22,806 bases of DNA from Paraglomus occultum (lineage: Eukaryota > Glomeromycota > Glomeromycetes > Paraglomerales > Paraglomeraceae). Below, piece after piece: positions 768 to 22,806 of the stretch; positions within the stretch are counted from its first letter, which is position 1; the number at the start of each line of letters is the position of its first letter. Under the pieces are notes generated by a model. That model was not told the origin of the DNA, did not search any database, and saw only the letters and a list, made by a program, of their open reading frames with translations. The DNA is taken from NCBI GenBank assembly GCA_910592205.1, contig CAJVPJ010000520.1, forward strand, positions 1 to 22,806, in the 5' to 3' direction. Both the position numbers and the translations under genes were made by a program.

Positions 768-2208
768 ATGTCCGAATCTCTCTTCTTCGAGCAACAGGAT
801 GGTTCGCGAATTGCGTACAAGATTTATGAACCATACAAGTCAGATACAACAGATGAGATTCCTCTTGTGATGATTATTGGATTGTAATAATTCATTCAAT
901 ATATACAATATATACATTCGTATCAATAATCTGATTGTTCTAACGTCGCTTATCATTGTAACAAACCGCTTTTCATTTTTTTAATTTGATTTGCGGTTTT
1001 AATCGACACATATGAATAGGTGGTCTACTAAAGAAATACTAATGGGTTTGGAAAAAGGTAAATTACCTATCGACACGTAATATATAAGCTATATCCCACG
1101 TTTTTAACTGACTTTAATGCGATATTAGAATTAGCAAAAGATCGAAAAGGTATGTGCTATTTTCTTCATCGTATTTTGTAAACGATTTACAATACTTGTA
1201 ACATTTATTGAACAGTAATTGTATTGGATAATCGTGGAATCGGAGAATCAACCGTTGCGTCTGAAACTGATCCGTGCTCAATTGAGTTGATGGCACAAGA
1301 TATAATAGCATTAATCAAGCATCTTGCAATCACAAAATTTAATCTGTTAGGATGGTCTATGGGAGGTAATTCTCAATAACCAAGTGTAATATAATAGTAC
1401 TTTTATTCATATTCAAGATCTGTCAATTGTAGGTCAAATAGCACTTTGCGTTGCGTTAAATATACCTCCTACTCTTAAATTAGAAAAACTAATTGTTTGT
1501 GCAAGGTAAAATGCATACATTATACATACATATGTAAACGTTTTACTTATCCACAAATTTGACTGTCACTACAGCTGGGTTCATGTTTCAAATGCAAGTT
1601 TTGACAACCTGTATCATTTACCGAAGTGGGATTACCCGAAAAGCTTACAAGAGCAGCGGAAGGAAATTACAGTCCTGTTCGAAAAAAACTTTATTGACTA
1701 CCTTCTCAAAAAGCCAGAAACGTTTGATAAACTGACTGAGGTTCTGTTCAATTCTCGCAGGCCATTTGAAATGTTTAGTTTGTATTATTCTTGGAACCAT
1801 GCTTGTTATGCTTGATGTTTAATTTAAAAGTGAAAACTAATAACAAATTTACTTGTAGAACGGCAATGGGAAGCTATAAAACAGTCAAATTTTGCCTCAA
1901 AATTGCACATGATTAAAGTGCCAACTTTGATAATTCATGGTGAAATTGATAAACTTGTTTCTATTCAAGAAGGGGAATTGCTTGCAAATGAAATCCCTGA
2001 TGCTATATTTGTCAGAATACCAAAAGTTGGACATATGTAAGTGTATTTTATTAAACCGTATTTAAAATTTAACATCATAATTACTTACGTTGATAACTGA
2101 ACTCAAAGGTTTTGGCCAATGGAACCCAAATCTGTTATCATCATTAATGACTTTTTGTTTGGAAAGAATAATGTTGATATTAGGAATAAAGCAAGATGCT
2201 TGTTGTAA
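768..2208 (+). CDS. alpha/beta hydrolase fold protein, 292 aa, eight exons
   Basis: The exons I derive are 768-883, 1020-1057, 1129-1149, 1216-1365, 1433-1505, 1575-1777, 1859-2036 and 2109-2208. Every intron is GT-AG, all phases join, and the sum is exactly 293 codons including TAA. The nucleophile elbow is GWSMGG, with Ser at about residue 106. The acid lies in HGEIDKLV (Asp about 231) and the histidine in VGHMFW (His about 259), so the triad is complete. LDNRGIGES before the elbow matches the DxRGxGxS motif of the family. The size and layout fit single-domain hydrolases of the 3-oxoadipate enol-lactonase, epoxide hydrolase or esterase type, probably soluble and cytosolic; no signal peptide is visible. 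The substrate cannot be told. Exon 3 is only 21 bases. The ATG at 768 gives a natural N-terminus, MSESLFFEQQDGSRIAYKIY. The order is intact, so this appears to be a live gene. Confidence 0.88.
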
Positions 2209-2560
2209 TTGAAATCTTACATGATAATGTAGGCAGCCTTTCTGAGTGGATCAAAAGGACCCAGTTATCATATAAACTCTTTACAGATGGTGAGAGGAAA
2301 TTACATGTACTAATGACCTAAAGTCGTTTTAGATTTATCTTTTAAGTGGGACAGTTGGATGTCATCTCAAGGATAAATATTTTATTAGTCAAAACTCGTT
2401 TTGAACTGCATGAGTGTGAAAGCTCTAGAGCTATGAAAAGCTGAGCATAACTTTGCAACTTGAGAAAAGTCGCTCTTATAACTAATTACTAATTCCGAAT
2501 TACTGTAATAAATAATGTAAATGAATCAGACTTGCATCATGCTAGAGTGATGACATTTAA
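2209..2560. other. non-coding spacer between the hydrolase and the foreign island
   Basis: All frames carry frequent stops under both the standard code and TGA=Trp. It includes the 3' UTR of the hydrolase gene. The left junction of the foreign island should lie somewhere before 2561, but no terminal repeat or target-site duplication is obvious. Confidence 0.4.
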
Positions 2561-3825
2561 AAAGGAGAGGGTGCTAAGTTAGGTAAGAAAGTTGATGAAT
2601 TAAGAGAAATTAGTGTTAAACAAATCAAAGTCAATGATGAAAACAAGCAGCTGAGAAAGTAAAAGAAGATGCTAAAAAATTACGTGTAAGTGGTTTAATC
2701 ACTCAATTTAGAACTATTTGAGATAAACCAGGAAATAGAACTTATAAAAAACTATTATTTATGAGAAATGTTTTGGGGTGGATTAAACATTGAGAAGCAT
2801 TAAAAACTGATGACACCTTTGATATTGATGGGGAAAAAACCAAGTTAGATCAGATTGAAGCAAAAGCTGATGCTATACTTGGTAAATATTATAATTGAAT
2901 TAGCTTTGGCACCTACTTTACTGAAAGGTTAAAAAATTGAAAAAATAGTGATGGTAAATATTATAAAGAGGAAGTAGTAAGAGCTCATTTAAGAGAAATC
3001 AAAGACTGTTTAAATTCCTTAAATCGAGGGTTAGATCCTGTCGAACAAAATGAGTTAGATCAAATTGATCACTATTTGGAACATGGTCCAGTTCCTCTCG
3101 AAAGGAGAATTCTACCCATGGAACTGAAAGCGGCCTTAGGAGTTAAAACTAATGTGTTTCGGGATTTAACTAAAAAATGAATTGCTTATTCCCAAAATAT
3201 TGATTTCAAAGTTAAGGCCAATGAAATTGAAGAACTAGCCAAGCGAGTTAATAAACCAGGATCTAAAATCCAAGCTCCAATAATTAAATATTGCAAAGAA
3301 GTCTTATCTAAAAAACCAGAACTAGTCGAAGATGATACTTATAATCTTCCCGAAGCGAGTGCTGACAATCGAGCTTGATTAGATTGATTCTTTACTCGCG
3401 ATTCCGAAGTAGTAGTGGGAACGATTGCTTTACAAGAAATCAAAGGGAATAATAATCTGAAAGCAGAAATCTTGCAGGAAATGAAAAACTTTAAAAACAG
3501 TAAAGATAACCTAATCTTATTAGATCGATCCATTAATGGAAATGGGGAAGAATTTACTGAAGAAGGAATCATTAAATACTATAGTGAAAAGTTAGGAGGA
3601 CAAAATCATGCTACTCGGAAATATGAAAAGCCCTTTAAGGATCAGCAACCAGAAGTGTTCTGAACGTGGAGTAATCCTTTAGCTATCTTATCCGGACTAG
3701 TTTTACTAACTTTAGTGGGAGGACTAATTTGAGCTTTTATTCGTCGGAAAAAAATAATTGCTTGATGAAATCAACCTGCTGAAGCGGAAGGTGATGAATT
3801 TGATAGTGAAGAGGATGAGTGATAG
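2561..3825 (+). pseudogene. Mollicutes-code (TGA=Trp) membrane-anchored protein gene, 5' truncated, frameshifted
   Basis: From 2620 to the TAG at 3823-3825 one frame has no TAA or TAG, but 12 TGA codons (2719, 2791, 2896, 2938, 3178, 3376, 3385, 3661, 3730, 3763, 3766, 3820). They fall where Trp fits, for example AWLDWF and GLIWAF. TGG occurs only twice (2779, 3667). That ratio is typical of genetic code 4. Codons are AT-rich, with TTA preferred for Leu. The product is lysine- and glutamate-rich, then has one hydrophobic segment (3673-3738, PLAILSGLVLLTLVGGL), a basic stop-transfer (RRKK) and an acidic tail (DEFDSEEDEW). This suggests a C-terminally anchored protein with a long charged domain. 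The start is missing: a related frame begins after TAA 2558 and shifts by one base between 2620 and 2660. I do not recognise the family. The fungus could not translate it; the standard code leaves an 82-codon piece (3415-3663). A mitochondrial plasmid source is a weaker alternative. Confidence 0.75.
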
Positions 3826-3875
3826 ATAAAGTTGCTGGAAACACAAAAAAGGTGTTCTAATAATGACTTGATTGT

Positions 3876-4139
3876 TTATTCTGCCAGTCTTCTTTTCTTT
3901 CTTAGTTCATCATGTGTTAATGTTGGTGCTAATGCTCGTTTAGTAGTTATGATTTTCTGTTCCTCTTGATAAATTTCATAAGTGATTTTTTCTTGATCTA
4001 GATATTCCTGGAGAGTTTGGGTGTCATTGATTTTAAAAACATAAGGAGCAATTTTTTCTCCTTGAGCTTTTTTTAGAATGCTTCAAATAGTGCTGTAATT
4101 CTTTGGTTCCATAGTGGATTTAATGTAAATTAGTTTCAT
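3876..4139 (-). pseudogene. small Mollicutes-code gene, 87 aa, one TGA=Trp
   Basis: On the minus strand an ATG at 4139 opens 88 codons to TAA at 3878-3876, with a single TGA at 4085-4083 (codon 19, in NYSTIWSILKKAQ). The product begins MKLIYIKSTMEPKNYSTI and is lysine- and glutamate-rich, ending in ELRKKRRLAE. It is convergent with the TGA-rich gene, with 50 bases between their stops, as expected for a contiguous piece of a compact bacterial chromosome. An AATATAAT stretch lies directly before the ATG, but no Shine-Dalgarno sequence is clear. A close relative lies at 4607 on the other strand, which supports this frame as real protein. Function unknown. In the standard code it stops after 18 residues. 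Confidence 0.7.
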
Positions 4140-4338
4140 ATTATATTTTTATATATAGAGGTAATCCTATATTAACCCTGTTATGGTTTATATTCATCAC
4201 CTTCTGGGATGATAAAGTGAGCATTAAATTACAAGTCCATAATAATAAGTTATGATGAACACCATTTACCATTATTACTTTCCAAAACGTCATCATTCAC
4301 ACTGGTCAATTTTACAGTCACATTAACATCGGGTCCGG
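4140..4338. other. AT-rich spacer at the right side of the foreign island
   Basis: No gene in any frame under either code. The right boundary of the bacterial-type DNA is not sharp. If the 4607 gene belongs to the same insertion, the boundary lies beyond about 4.9 kb. Confidence 0.3.
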
Positions 4339-4476
4339 TTCATTTCACCGACAATCGTTTCGCCGACAATCATTTCACCGACAAATTTTCGCCAGCATTA
4401 TTTTAAAATTATCCCTTTTTGATAGTTTTTGTCGGTAAAATGTACCTGTCGGCGAAATGATTGTCGGCGAAATGAA
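4339..4476. mobile_element. MITE-like inverted-repeat element (TTTCGCCGACA type)
   Basis: A 31-base left arm (4339-4369, beginning TTCATTTCACCGACAATCG) and a 31-base right arm (4446-4476, CTGTCGGCGAAATGATTGTC...) are inverted copies with 2 mismatches. They enclose 76 bases, and each arm is itself built from repeated 'TTTCRCCGACA' units; a third unit follows the left arm at about 4371-4384. No coding capacity. It fits a short non-autonomous inverted-repeat transposon or foldback element. No clean target-site duplication was identified. Confidence 0.6.
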
Positions 4477-4606
4477 TGCCTCCCTTAACCCCTCATTTAC
4501 AGAATGTTCACTTTGTCTGGTTTGTTGCAGTCTGCCCCATTATATGTTTTTTATATTGTCAATATCCAGTGTCGGAAAAAACCTGTGCATAATAATAATA
4601 ATAAAA

Positions 4607-4957
4607 ATGAAACTAATTTACATCAAATCCACAATGAACACAAAGAATTACAGAACCATTAGAAGCATTCTAAAAAAAGCTCAAGGAGAGAAAATTGGCC
4701 CTTATTATTATGTTTTTAAAATGAATGACTATGGCACCAAAATTTTTGAGGAATATTTAGATAAAGAAAAGATTACCTATGAATTTACCAGGAAGAATGA
4801 TAATAAACCATTAAACCCAAATTCAATAAAACTAAGAAAAAAAAACGAAAATCAGAAGACAGTAAGGGAAAGCAGTTTAGCATTTCTTGTAGTTTTTGAC
4901 TCCAATTTCTTCGTAAGCATAAATTTTATTATTCGATTATCGAATGTGTGTTCTTGA
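4607..4957 (+). CDS. nuclear-readable paralogue of the 87-aa Mollicutes-type protein
   Basis: From ATG 4607 the product begins MKLIYIKSTMNTKNYRTI, and 27 of its first 32 residues match the minus-strand gene at 4139-3876. Codon 19 is AGA (Arg) where the sister has TGA, so this copy can be read in the standard code. Two extra residues appear in PYYYVFK, and the shared EYLDxEKITYE block follows. After about residue 80 (LRKKNENQ) similarity ends, beside a run of nine A. The next 30 or so residues to TGA 4957 look unlike the sister, so a frameshift in the A run is likely and the true end is uncertain. The longer frame from 4457 starts inside the inverted-repeat element and is not a plausible N-terminus. 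Expression is unknown; it may be a relic of transferred endobacterial DNA. Confidence 0.5.
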   Translation: MKLIYIKSTMNTKNYRTIRSILKKAQGEKIGPYYYVFKMNDYGTKIFEEYLDKEKITYEFTRKNDNKPLNPNSIKLRKKNENQKTVRESSLAFLVVFDSNFFVSINFIIRLSNVCS

Positions 4958-5581
4958 GATATAAAGGCACCAAAGTGAGGAAAATACTCGGACCCATAGC
5001 CATTAATGAGTATAACCTATTATTTGGTCACACTGGTGCAAATTTAAATTTCATTATCTTCTTTTATATCACTGCTATTGATAATATCGTCACTATTAAT
5101 CTGTTTCTTTATTTTTATTAATCCATTCTTCCTTCGCGTAACTCGCGGGTTTCAGTTGTCATTTGATTAAATGAAAGTTTCGGATCCCAGCCGACCTTTT
5201 TTGTCAAACAAGTTTTTAAAGCTTTTCCACAGTTTTCGTCTGGCAAGTAACTTTGTTCGTACTTGGTTTATTGTTATTATTATGCCTTTTTTGCACATTC
5301 CCTATCTCCGAATTAGGGATGTACTAGTTAATATGGTTATTTTTGAATGTCACTATCACTTATATTAATTTATTACACGGGACCAGCTCATTATGGAATC
5401 AACTTCATTGTCCTGCGCTGTCCAGGTGACTATTCGTAACCAAAAGGCATATTGATATTGCCTAAAACAAAAAGTATAGAATGCCACTTAGTCAGATTGT
5501 TTTCAATAATATCACGTGTTGAGCAGCCTAGCCTATAAAGAACGATCCCAACTACATTCCCTCTCAGTCAGATTGATTTCA
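4958..5581. other. spacer upstream of the F-box gene
   Basis: AT-rich with no supported gene. The 65-aa frame at 5171-5368 has low-complexity hydrophobic composition and no neighbouring exon support. The 5' part of this spacer is a candidate for the right junction of the island. Confidence 0.35.
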
Positions 5582-7138
5582 ATGTCCGGTTTCACATCAC
5601 CTACACCACTTCCTGTAGAATGTATTCACGAGATAATATTTCATCTTTTCGATGAACCTGATGCTTTGAATAGATGTATACGCACAAGTCGTCTATTTGC
5701 ACGTCTTACAGCACCAATACTATATAAGAATCCATGGCGCTTTTTTGGTGTAGAGGACGAAGAAGGAGAGCTAAGAAAAGATGATGATCCACGAGGACCG
5801 TTGCTTATAAGGACGTATATGAATTGTTTAGATAAACCTCTTCTTGAGGTTGTCATGACTCGTGCAGCTCAAACAGTGACTTGTGGAAGAGCTGCTGCTG
5901 CTATAGTTTCTTCTATCCCCACGGCAATTTCTAGTTTGCTCGATTATATCGCTTATACTCGAGACATCAATTTACCCATTATTTACAGATTTATCGAGGC
6001 CGAATGTTTGGCGCTTGTTCCGTTTGCTGGTATGACGAATATGATTCAGGACTCGTTTATGGAATTGTCAAAAGCTTTCGCCCAGCGCTGTTCTAATGTA
6101 GAAACATTTGTTAGCTGTTGGCATGTGAATACCGAGATATTGAAAACAGTTATTAGCAGATTTCCCAATTTATGTCGTCTGGATCTGTTAAAATATGAGG
6201 CTACTGATGAGATATTGGACCTAATAGCCAAAAACTGTCGACGCTTGCATGAATTCAGGTCTATGGTCAAAGCGTGTTCGGCTGCATCATTATCGTCCGT
6301 AATTGAGGCACAAGAAGATGGACATCTGAAAGAGTTTTGTATTAGAGTGACTACTTCTCCTCGTCTACTGCTGACTAGGCTGTCTGCTGGGGTCATTGCC
6401 AAGATAACTGATTTGAGAATTAACATAGTTTCTATACTTGACGTTATGAATGGATTGAATTTTACCAACTTGCGGAGTCTAGATCTGAGTGAATGTTTAG
6501 GCGTGATTGACACTACGTTCGATACGTTCATGTTTGGACAAATGTTTTCCGAAGTCAACCTTTCCGAAACCAAAGTAACTGAAGAAGCTATCATAGCCCT
6601 TGCTAAACATTGTAACAAGAATTTGAAAAAGTTGGTAATGCTTCCGTGCGGGGCAGCCGATTCGGTAGAGGAGGGTATTAGAGCTTTAGCTGAACACTGT
6701 CCTAATTTGATCGAGTTCAGGCTCGATGTTATTCGCGCCGAGTTAAGATCTATTATTGAATTGATCAACGCGTGTAGAAATATGAGCGTTCTAGTCATAG
6801 GCGGTGTTGATATTAATTCAGAGGATGACATTCTGGACAAGGTTATTGATGCTATTGGAACGAATCTCGGAAATACTTTGAGTGAGCTGGACGTGAGAGA
6901 TTGGGCAGTGAGTGACGAGGCTATCGTGTCATTGGCTAGAAAATGTACAAATCTAACCAAGTTGACTTTGAGATATTGTCGATATATCAATGATGGCAGT
7001 ATTAGAGAATTATGTAAACATTTACCGGGGAAACTAAGATTCCTTGATATATCGAAATGTCCAGATATCACCATAGAGACTGTCGGGTATGCAACGAATA
7101 CACTGATTGGATGTCGGATTGTGCATTGTTCTGGTTGA
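5582..7138 (+). CDS. F-box and leucine-rich-repeat protein, 518 aa, intronless
   Basis: The ATG at 5582 gives MSGFTSPTPLPVECIHEI, placing an F-box at about residues 9-54 (LPVECIHEIIFHLF then LTAPILYKNPWRFF). The rest is a run of AMN1/RNI-type leucine-rich repeats, clearest after residue 190 (LRSLDLSECLGV, LVMLPCGAADSVEEGI, LSELDVRDWAVSDEAI, LTKLTLRYCRYINDGSI, LRFLDISKCPDIT). Such proteins bind Skp1 through the F-box and present substrates to SCF ubiquitin ligases through the repeats. The frame is open 22 codons upstream, but only from a GTG, so the ATG is preferred. The family is very large in mycorrhizal fungi, so a specific orthologue cannot be named. Intact. The 342-aa minus-strand frame at 6046-7074 is its shadow. 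Confidence 0.9.
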   Translation: MSGFTSPTPLPVECIHEIIFHLFDEPDALNRCIRTSRLFARLTAPILYKNPWRFFGVEDEEGELRKDDDPRGPLLIRTYMNCLDKPLLEVVMTRAAQTVTCGRAAAAIVSSIPTAISSLLDYIAYTRDINLPIIYRFIEAECLALVPFAGMTNMIQDSFMELSKAFAQRCSNVETFVSCWHVNTEILKTVISRFPNLCRLDLLKYEATDEILDLIAKNCRRLHEFRSMVKACSAASLSSVIEAQEDGHLKEFCIRVTTSPRLLLTRLSAGVIAKITDLRINIVSILDVMNGLNFTNLRSLDLSECLGVIDTTFDTFMFGQMFSEVNLSETKVTEEAIIALAKHCNKNLKKLVMLPCGAADSVEEGIRALAEHCPNLIEFRLDVIRAELRSIIELINACRNMSVLVIGGVDINSEDDILDKVIDAIGTNLGNTLSELDVRDWAVSDEAIVSLARKCTNLTKLTLRYCRYINDGSIRELCKHLPGKLRFLDISKCPDITIETVGYATNTLIGCRIVHCSG

Positions 7139-18951: not shown

Positions 18952-18981
18952 GTGGAAATAACATGATTATGTTATTCCCAC
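18952..18981. repeat. 30-bp near-perfect palindrome, copy 1
   Basis: GTGGAAATAACATGA is followed by its near inverse complement, giving 15-base arms with two mismatched pairs. A perfect version lies 133 bases downstream. Confidence 0.8.
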
Positions 18982-19113
18982 TTTTTTCAAGTTGCATGTA
19001 TGACCGTGAGGGCTAATAAGGATGCAAACGGAACATAAAAGTCTATGTTTGATATATTTTCCATATGTTTCTTCATCCATAGGCGCGCAATTTTGTAAGT
19101 TCATGATAATGTA

Positions 19114-19143
19114 GTGGAAATAACATAATTATGTTATTTCCAC
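19114..19143. repeat. 30-bp perfect palindrome, copy 2
   Basis: The arm GTGGAAATAACATAA is followed immediately by its exact inverse complement TTATGTTATTTCCAC with no spacer. It differs from copy 1 at only two bases. The pair brackets a 132-bp A/T-rich interval and may be the ends of a small element. Confidence 0.85.
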
Positions 19144-19166
19144 TTCGTTTAGTATTAGGTTATTCC

Positions 19167-21080: not shown

Positions 21081-21479
21081 GTCGCCAGATTCACTGAATA
21101 GATACAGAATACAGACCCGGTGAAATGAATTGAATCGAGCAAACGCGTAATGCGTCAAAGACAAAGCGTGGCCTTCAGCGACGAGAATCTGAGCACGGAT
21201 AGTGGAAAAGGTTCAAGAATCTTGAGTATTATGAGCGCGCGGACAAAGAGCGCAGAAAGATAGGATAAGCATCTTATACCTACCTACACGTACGCGTGAG
21301 AGAACGGCAGGTGGCAGCTAAATTCCCGATTATCAGTGACAGGTATAAACATAGCATTATAGCAACATTTCAAAAATGTAGTAACTTTCTGCTATATGTG
21401 ACTTGAAAACGATAGCACATTGAAATTGTTAAAATATGACGCATTTCGCAAGTTATAGCGCCACCTTATATTCAAATCA

Positions 21480-22582
21480 TGAGTCCACGAACGGATTTAT
21501 GTGACACGTGCCAACATTTTCGGAACGGCTTACAGATAATGCTCGTAAGGAAGAAGAAGCGAAAGATTTACTAAAAAATTCAAAGAACATTTAGTTAAGA
21601 CCAAATTAGAAAGAAATTATTACAACAAAAATACGAAATTAGCAGAACAACAAAGGAAAATGGTAGACGATAATTACGTTGTAACCGGAGGTAAAGCTGA
21701 TTATTGTAGCGTTGACGCGACGGCTCATTACAGTTACGATTGAGCACAAAATGTTCACGTGCCCCATTCCAATCAACAGGTAAGTAAAATTATTATCTTA
21801 GTCCGCGCAAAGTGCATTTATTTGGTATACATGATGAAGCAGTACGCGAACAAATTAATTACGTTCTCGATGAAGACGAAATTATCGGCAAAGGTCCTAA
21901 TGGTACGCCGAGCCTGGTATTTGATGGAATTAAACGATTGAATAAAGGTGAGAAACATTTAAAGATTACTTGCAATAATGCCGGCGGTCAGAATAAAAAT
22001 AATGCAAGTATTTGATTTTACTTATATATAGTAATTTGCGGTAATTATGAAAGTATCGAATTAAATTTCGTGGTACCTGGACATACTAAATTTAAGTGTG
22101 ATGGTAGCTTCGGACTGATTAAAAAGCTTTATCGAAAAACAACTGTCGATTGCGTAGATCATATTATTGAAGTTGTGAAAAAATCAAGTACAGCCGGATT
22201 AAACAAAGCTCAACGTTATGACAATGGCAAAGGCTTTCAATACTTAGATCTGAATTCTGTATTAGAAATTTTTTTTAAAAAACTAAATGGTTTACAAAAA
22301 TATCAGCATTTTGTATTCGAAGCAGCCAATCCTGGAGTTGTCAAAGCTCAGCTGGTTGCTAATGGTGCTTTTACCGAATTTAATTTATTGAAAACCAGAA
22401 AAACAACTGTTTCCAAAATTACTGGAGAAATTAAATTCTTTTCCATCTTAATACTAACCCCTCCTCCTTTGGATTACAAAAGGCAAGAATATCTTTACTA
22501 TTACCAAAAAATTCGTGCATTTGTTAGAGATGAATTCAAAGATATTACTTGCCCACAACCAAGTTATACTGACAATGACTAA
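21480..22582 (+). pseudogene. broken DUF7869-type (transposon-associated) gene
   Basis: In order, the pieces are SPRTDLCDTCQHF, a Lys-rich helix (KTKLERNYYNKNTKL), DWAQNVHVPHSNQQ, SPRKVHLFGIHDEA, then KITCNNAGGQNKNN, VVPGHTKFKCDGSFGLIKKLYRKT, GLNKAQRYDN, GLQKYQHFVFEA and PPPLDYKRQEYLY up to TAA 22580-22582. This is the layout of the DUF7869 proteins that recur in fungal and animal genomes, often linked to transposons; the D-N-GQNKNN and GHTKF motifs are hallmarks, although the first Asp here appears as Asn (TCNNAGG). The copy is dead as written: about three single-base frameshifts (near 21537, 21575 and 21795) and two TGA codons (21741, 22013) where Trp is expected. The sequence GTAAGT...CTTAG at 21780-21801 resembles a 22-base intron, but a lost base explains it better. 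The open part is 21812-22582 apart from TGA 22013. No start codon was found. Confidence 0.7.
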
Positions 22583-22806
22583 AATTCTTTGTTACTCTTT
22601 AATTTGTTTTCTATTACCATAATAAGTTAATCTTTCAATAAATGTTGCTTAGTTTTATTGCTTTTAATTTTTAAAACTTAAATAAATAATAATAATAAAC
22701 ATTAATGTAATTATATAGTGAATATAGCCATATTAATGTTCTGACCCAAATCGAAATCTGACCCAATTCGGAATAGGGTCGACCCAAATCGCGATCGCGT
22801 TTCGGG
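22583..22806. repeat. 3' flank with tandem TGACCCAAATCG-type repeats at the window edge
   Basis: After the AT-rich 3' region of the broken gene, three 12-base units appear: TGACCCAAATCG (22742-22753), TGACCCAATTCG (22759-22770) and CGACCCAAATCG (22780-22791). An internal AGGGTCGACCC palindrome-like core and GCGATCGC follow. The window ends inside it, so the full element cannot be seen. It may be the terminal repeat of a mobile element. Confidence 0.45.

Follow-up and report, generated by a model that had tools for sequence, protein, structure and literature searches.

A TGA=Trp mobile element family in the nuclear DNA of Paraglomus occultum, probably derived from an endobacterium

Related systems and the Paraglomus locus

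Among the described systems close to the locus analysed here are transfers of the Wolbachia type, in which DNA of a bacterial endosymbiont lies in the nuclear chromosomes of its host and decays after arrival. The case of Paraglomus occultum is alike in these respects. However, Wolbachia-type inserts are chromosome fragments, whereas the Paraglomus sequence is a mobile element, found in hundreds of places and written in an altered code. A mobile element that crossed from a bacterium into a eukaryotic nucleus also has a parallel in bdelloid rotifers, whose genome reportedly contains bacterial insertion sequences; in Paraglomus, by contrast, the copy number is in the hundreds and the code is altered. 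Pack-type elements, i.e., DNA transposons that carry genes, offer a third comparison. They too have variable cargo between mobile ends and many truncated copies, but in the Paraglomus element both cargo and transposase are written in code 4 (TGA=Trp).

The partners are also familiar ones. MRE (Mollicutes-related endobacteria) contigs inside fungal assemblies are described in passages of PMC11423566, gene transfers from fungus to MRE are described in passages of PMC10507103, and Rhizophagus has bacterial genes whose donors, according to part of PMC5982333, are not known MRE. The present case shares with this exchange between Mucoromycota and MRE the kind of partners and the horizontal mode of transfer, as set out in parts of PMC10507103 and PMC5982333. 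It differs in direction, which in the passages of PMC10507103 is from fungus to bacterium and here would be from endobacterium to fungus. Among the records listed in literature searches, no title or abstract opening names a mobile element passing from endobacterium to fungus; most subscription papers fall outside this scope, and earlier notice is possible.

The reading that we favour, with a probability of roughly 0.8, is that a DNA-transposon family from an endobacterium with TGA=Trp, of the Mollicutes-related type, entered the nuclear chromosomes of its host many times, and that the locus analysed here is one dead copy. If true, this would be an instance, at transposon scale, of DNA moving from an endobacterium into a fungus, which is less often described than the reverse. 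The altered code is a rare built-in marker, because the place in which a copy last worked can be told from its TGA codons at Trp columns, and arrival can be distinguished from decay for every single copy. Sequences common to Mucoromycota and endobacteria then need not all be contamination or the result of fungus-to-bacterium transfer.

The window copy, its code and its host flanks

The window, meaning the whole stretch of DNA that was analysed, is the complete contig C520 (CAJVPJ010000520.1; 22,806 nucleotides) of an assembly of 32.3 Mb in 1408 contigs. Its features are listed below.

1218 to 1364, plus strand: alpha/beta hydrolase exon of the host flank (Pfam Abhydrolase_1, E 3.1e-6, above cut-off), with Trp written TGG
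2557 to 4538, plus strand: 5'-truncated, decaying element copy (cargo gene, orf87 and right terminus), delimited by homology to other copies
2561 to 2644, plus strand: N-terminal part of the cargo protein (KGEGAKLGKKVDELREISVKQIKVNDENK...) in another frame, continuous in copy L022
2620 to 3825, plus strand: code-4 cargo frame of 401 codons, with a C-terminal hydrophobic anchor, an acidic tail and 12 TGA=Trp past the frameshift
3879 to 4139, minus strand: orf87, an 87-aa ORF with an NLS-like C-terminus and one TGA (codon 19)
4152 to 4174, minus strand: motif (about 22 bp) located upstream of orf87; the motif of the transposase-side end recurs here in inverted form
4324 to 4488, no strand assigned: hairpin-forming repeat inserted in the window copy (arms 4352-4383 and 4447-4478)
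4501 to 4538, plus strand: right terminus (AGAATGTTCACTTTGTCTGGTTTGTTGCAGTCTGCCCC), then ATTA
4592 to 5131, minus strand: second, inverted partial element, with an orf87 copy at 4607-4798 on the plus strand
5510 to 7075, plus strand: F-box/LRR-like gene of the host flank (families below cut-off), with three TGG as Trp codons and its stop as the sole in-frame TGA
21402 to 22723, plus strand: decayed module of the DUF7869 transposase; two of its Trp columns have TGA

Homology to four other copies begins at 2557/2560 and ends at the shared terminus at 4538, a sharp right end that was found by aligning 20 fetched loci. It stops at 4323 and picks up again at about 4489, on either side of the hairpin repeat. 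The same repeat, with TCGGCGAAATGA-type arms, is seen elsewhere on contig C8 (L024:1521-1657).

Read from stop to stop under code 4, positions 2620-3825 give 401 codons with 14 TGA, 2 TGG and no TAA or TAG, and the remaining two forward frames have 30 and 33 TAA/TAG across this stretch. The TGA codons at 2635 and 2638 precede a frameshift near 2645 and lie outside the homologous reading of the cargo frame; the other 12 are at 2719, 2791, 2896, 2938, 3178, 3376, 3385, 3661, 3730, 3763, 3766 and 3820. Among 2000 sequences generated for region 2500-4300 by a first-order Markov model, the longest code-4 frame had a mean length of 109 codons and a maximum of 333, so that none matched the 401 codons observed. 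Stronger evidence than frame length for a code-4 cargo comes from comparison with other copies. Across 31 HSPs (those >99.5% identical to the query were skipped), 99 TGA codons fall opposite a Trp of the query and 22 opposite another residue (Ile in nine cases), and there are 27 TAA/TAG in scattered positions.

Much of the initial annotation of this stretch can be upheld. It had described a frame of about 400 codons with 12 TGA and neither TAA nor TAG, which agrees with the 401 codons and with the count after the frameshift. Copy L022 reads unbroken through position 2645, so the single frameshift that had been proposed in the window copy is real, and the 5' end is missing as suggested, with copies L022, L025 and L026 extending about 600-700 bp further left. 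The proposed transmembrane-type anchor corresponds to a C-terminal hydrophobic stretch with an acidic tail, recognized by eye in the 401-aa protein. As for the neighbours, the hydrolase stands, with its Abhydrolase_1 match above cut-off, and the F-box gene matches LRR/F-box-like families only below their cut-offs. The 401-aa protein had no family above cut-off in Pfam and NCBIfam, and a GTDB scan, an IMG/VR scan and a phage tblastn with it were all unproductive, as were Rfam and tRNA scans of the window.

The host code can be read from ordinary genes of the assembly. A Pfam Histone match, which we take to be H2B from its conserved end, finishes in ...KYTSSK followed by a TGA stop, and the tubulin exons that were read have TGG as their only Trp codon. 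A TGA in a short N-terminal tubulin match was rejected as coding, as it lies beyond a GTAAGC splice donor and was read as intron. The copy on contig C1 is flanked on its right by an SH3 gene and on its left by an unnamed ORF with four TGG and one TGA (codon 6 of a mechanical frame); next to the copy on C125 is a kinase gene, on the side that was read. In the hydrolase, F-box-like, SH3 and kinase flank genes, Trp is TGG. The window and C1 copies thus appear to have contiguous host-type genes on both sides, as is expected of nuclear insertion.

The element family, its enzyme and a candidate donor

The 401-aa protein has 48 matching segments on 25 contigs of the assembly, the window's own included. 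The 23-bp form of the terminus occurs at 359 sites at ≤3 mismatches (reversed control, 0), and the left, transposase-side motif at 98 sites (control, 1). By these homologies the window gene is a decaying member of a transposable element family with a high copy number, of which the assembly contains hundreds of pieces.

Some longer copies continue leftward into the DUF7869 module, whose left edge is a conserved motif beside DNA that differs among the copies read. An inverted motif of about 20 bp flanks the unit from transposase to orf87 on both sides, and with its inverted form beside orf87 this unit looks bounded by short inverted repeats. Within 4 kb of a transposase, orf87 lies downstream and convergent in 11 pairs, downstream on the same strand in 2, upstream and divergent in 3 and upstream on the same strand in 3 (based on 70 of the 109 rows for the transposase and on 146 of the 150 for orf87). 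The 11 convergent pairs indicate that the usual order is transposase, cargo, convergent orf87. An extra tail, ending in GGGGCATGC when read inward, is found on many copies and is absent from some; it may be part of the original element or derive from a fungal one. The transposase-side end differs from the GGGGCATGC end, and a single fixed element boundary was rejected, two kinds of end being present. When 94 perfect termini of the 359 were set against all 150 scored orf87 rows, just 25 of the 94 had a listed orf87 match adjacent, so the terminus may also occur without orf87. Inverted GGGGCATGC ends with ATAT outside both were seen at two loci only, and ATAT also follows many single ends. On C818 the terminus of another copy directly adjoins cargo sequence, and on C241 two termini are 44 bp apart.

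Cargo genes vary between copies, and those cargo proteins that were scanned have no confident family. Differing cargo proteins are encoded, for instance, at L021:1266-2211, L041:935-1447, L051:3264-4037, L052:31-1062 and L059:1-729, all with in-frame TGA; several of them have weak coiled-coil matches and one has a cysteine-rich start. Locus L046 was rejected as a clean complete element, as the 2.4 kb from its left end to the transposase carry other gene fragments. Between the outward-facing terminus and the transposase (L046:72-2461, on C43) are fragments like a CXC domain (PF03638, below cut-off) and like a kinase (by eye), a possible capture of fungal gene pieces or possibly two adjacent insertions.

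The enzyme of the family matches DUF7869 (PF25273) with 56.1 bits against a cut-off of 26, and at least 109 segments of it are present in the assembly (83 scored of 717 candidates). It is probably a transposase, and its conserved Asp residues may be those of a DDE enzyme. The Pfam entry gives no function, and a full-text literature search for 'DUF7869' returned no papers. Compared with other DUF7869 proteins, that of the element has mostly TGA as its Trp codon and occurs together with cargo of bacterial type. DUF7869 was absent from 14 prokaryote controls, which makes a eukaryotic ancestry of the enzyme likely. A PDB profile search gave no relative, an IMG/VR scan and a plasmid tblastn were unproductive, and a single-sequence AlphaFold model (pLDDT 35) was unusable.

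The code of the enzyme was read from 20 transposase copies among the loci fetched. TGA is common to two or more copies at all five Trp columns and at none of the 586 other columns, four of the five columns alternate between TGA and TGG, and none of the 20 copies has TGG at every Trp column that it covers. In the numbering of the C125 copy, the columns are as follows.

Column 91: TGA in 15 of the 16 copies with letters, AGA in the remaining one
Column 139: TGA in 7 and TGG in 10 of 19 copies
Column 218: TGA in 5 and TGG in 13 of 20 copies
Column 314: TGA in 15 and TGG in 5 of 20 copies
Column 405: TGA in 13 and TGG in 1 of 15 copies

Over 42 HSPs, 54 transposase TGA codons stand opposite Trp and 17 opposite other residues; of 33 TAA/TAG codons, two are at Trp. 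With TGA at Trp positions in transposase and cargo alike, both were written for TGA=Trp. Eight of the 109 transposase segments have no stop codon and others have TAA only, all of them short pieces; the C1 copy has an open transposase frame of 615 codons.

The transposases of C458 and C125 differ at dS 0.63 with omega 0.09, and comparison of either with C1 reaches saturation. With C125 as the reference, dS is 0.43-0.60 and omega 0.06-0.14 in 12 of 19 transposase copies; of the remaining seven, six have omega 0.21-0.41 and one is saturated. Omega is 0.24-0.56 in 15 cargo copies and 0.10-0.37 in 21 of 22 orf87 copies. Care must be taken with these values, which lean low because tblastn segments favour conserved stretches; the survey skipped the query's own copy, and overlapping HSPs count some codons twice. 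The values of the 12 copies indicate that they diverged where TGA is sense. Much of the divergence thus seems, on codon comparison, to predate the death of the copies in the nucleus and to have built up while they were under selection and TGA was read as Trp; this favours many arrivals over one. With omega of 0.21-0.41 in the rest and of 0.24-0.56 in the cargo, part of the divergence may be nuclear.

At least 150 segments match orf87 (150 scored of 396 candidates, a few genes being counted twice). Its TGA at codon 19 was rejected as a Trp codon; four aligned relatives have Arg there, so this TGA is taken as a mutation. The classic monopartite NLS has the pattern K-K/R-x-K/R. Among 23 distinct readings of orf87 of at least 60 aa (22 from elements, 1 bacterial), an NLS-like C-terminus (PRKKRKLEE and variants) is present in 16 of the 22 element readings. 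Counted over the 18 of these in which the basic block is retained, the number is again 16. No such motif is seen in the homologue from the bacterial contig C16. The motif is a hint, not proof, of a putative nuclear localization. A weak match to Viral_Rep (E 0.095, below cut-off) was rejected, and an IMG/VR scan with the orf87 alignment was unproductive.

Bacterial contigs in code 4 are found in the same assembly and offer a candidate donor. C967 carries rplJ-rplL-rpoB-rpoC (L10, L7/L12) with TGA=Trp, the rpoB gene having 5 TGA and 4 TGG. C16 (79 kb) has a tRNA cluster that includes a UCA anticodon, called SeC by ARAGORN and on our reading a Mollicutes Trp tRNA, as well as HU-like, thioredoxin, AIG1-like (GTPase) and PemK-like (toxin) genes. 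Between the AIG1-like and PemK-like genes lies the orf87 homologue, which shares 56% identical residues with the window copy and, when used as a query, scores 215 bits against itself and 88 bits against the next copy. It has ACG at the usual start ATG and so may itself be a relic. Another C16 protein, of 151 aa, has a C-terminus that is hydrophobic and rich in Trp and is followed by an acidic tail; by eye, this resembles the end of the 401-aa protein. Among the transposase and DUF7869 matches listed, none is on C16 or C967, the contigs recognized as bacterial, of which about 10 kb were read. Third-position GC is 0.21 in the 401-aa cargo gene, 0.31 in the bacterial rpoB and 0.30-0.39 in three transposases; with 0.21 against 0.31, composition alone does not link the cargo to that bacterium. 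A GTDB scan with the bacterial rpoB gave four distant relatives (29-35%). An exact 16S/18S primer motif was not found, and with no 16S the name 'Mollicutes-related' derives from gene content, code and tRNA.

Taken against these results, the initial annotation was right to read TGA as Trp, which is borne out by TGA at Trp positions in cargo and transposase. Its guess at a Mollicutes-type endobacterium as the source gains support from the code-4 bacterial contigs, one with an orf87 homologue, and its placing of the copy in nuclear DNA, where it decayed, we judge correct from the host-type genes that flank it. The proposal of a lone chance insert of endosymbiont DNA does not hold; the gene belongs instead to a mobile element that has a defined end and a probable transposase and is present as hundreds of fragments.

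Possible routes into the nucleus

On the favoured reading, the family would have evolved, and have its home, in an endobacterium that reads TGA as Trp. In the better-preserved copies, a DUF7869 transposase-like gene is followed by at least one variable cargo gene and then by a convergent orf87, and the window copy has kept one cargo gene, orf87 and the right end. Many copies would have arrived separately. Once in the nucleus, TGA would act as a stop, and the genes would become unreadable and decay. With TGA as a stop, nuclear copies cannot give full-length transposase, so any further nuclear spread would depend on enzyme delivered by the endobacterium or on a transposase of the fungus that recognizes the ends. 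A bolder version, which we offer tentatively and put well short of an even chance, is a cross-kingdom transposon. Transposase and orf87 made in the endobacterium, perhaps together with element DNA, would reach the fungal nucleus and there insert and remobilize copies that the fungus cannot read, the nucleus being a second habitat of an element with working genes only in the endosymbiont. If the enzyme truly works in the nucleus from outside, this would be a new way for mobile DNA to cross kingdoms.

Alternatively, there may have been few captures followed by nuclear amplification, in which a fungal transposon with GGGGCATGC ends took up the code-4 orf87 and cargo and was spread by a fungal transposase. 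The 359 terminus copies in the assembly fit this account, as do the tail between orf87 and terminus that is common to many fetched copies, the two loci with ATAT outside both ends, the close or abutting termini, and the small share (25 of 94) of listed perfect termini with a listed orf87 match beside them. However, the switching between TGA and TGG, and the 12 of 19 transposases at dS 0.43-0.60 and omega 0.06-0.14, are unlike what a nuclear burst of one or a few dead copies would leave. As a general account we regard it as less likely than the favoured reading; for the tail-bearing subfamily it is a possible one.

Passive insertion of endosymbiont DNA, independent of any transposon, would be in keeping with a donor present in the assembly and with DNA in that donor's code, but the family is on 25 contigs with a shared end. 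The bacterial rpoB, the sole core gene so searched, is not likewise dispersed, its matches being on C967 and, as weaker segments, on C743 and C1125, where they are taken for putative polymerase genes of the fungus itself. Such an origin is very improbable. Fungal mitochondria commonly use code 4, and a nuclear insert of mitochondrial origin, whether from the mitochondrial genome or from a plasmid, would equally show TGA=Trp. Against this, the contig of the orf87 homologue also has HU-like, thioredoxin, PemK-like and tRNA genes, the rpoB operon written in code 4 is bacterial, and no mitochondrial gene family was found among the proteins scanned, which came from some of the copies and also included no B-type DNA polymerase or phage-type RNA polymerase family. 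We therefore give a mitochondrial source little credence.

An assembly chimera or endobacterial contamination has to be considered, as endobacterial contigs are present in this assembly and such contamination of Mucoromycota assemblies is documented in parts of PMC11423566 and PMC10507103. It is nevertheless highly improbable, given host-type genes on both sides in the window contig and C1 and on the one side read in C125, a single precise end at hundreds of sites, and a repeat inserted in the window copy. Least credible of all is that the fungus itself decodes TGA as Trp, by reassignment or read-through, and that the element is a normal active nuclear transposon: open transposase frames in nuclear copies, such as that on C1, would suit it, but H2B stops at TGA, Trp is written TGG in the tubulin exons and in the F-box-like gene, 24 element loci contain no tRNA, suppressor or other, and three or four in-frame TGAs would leave very little full-length read-through product.

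Elsewhere in the window, at 18952-19145, are two near-identical palindromic repeats of 32 bp, 162 bp apart.
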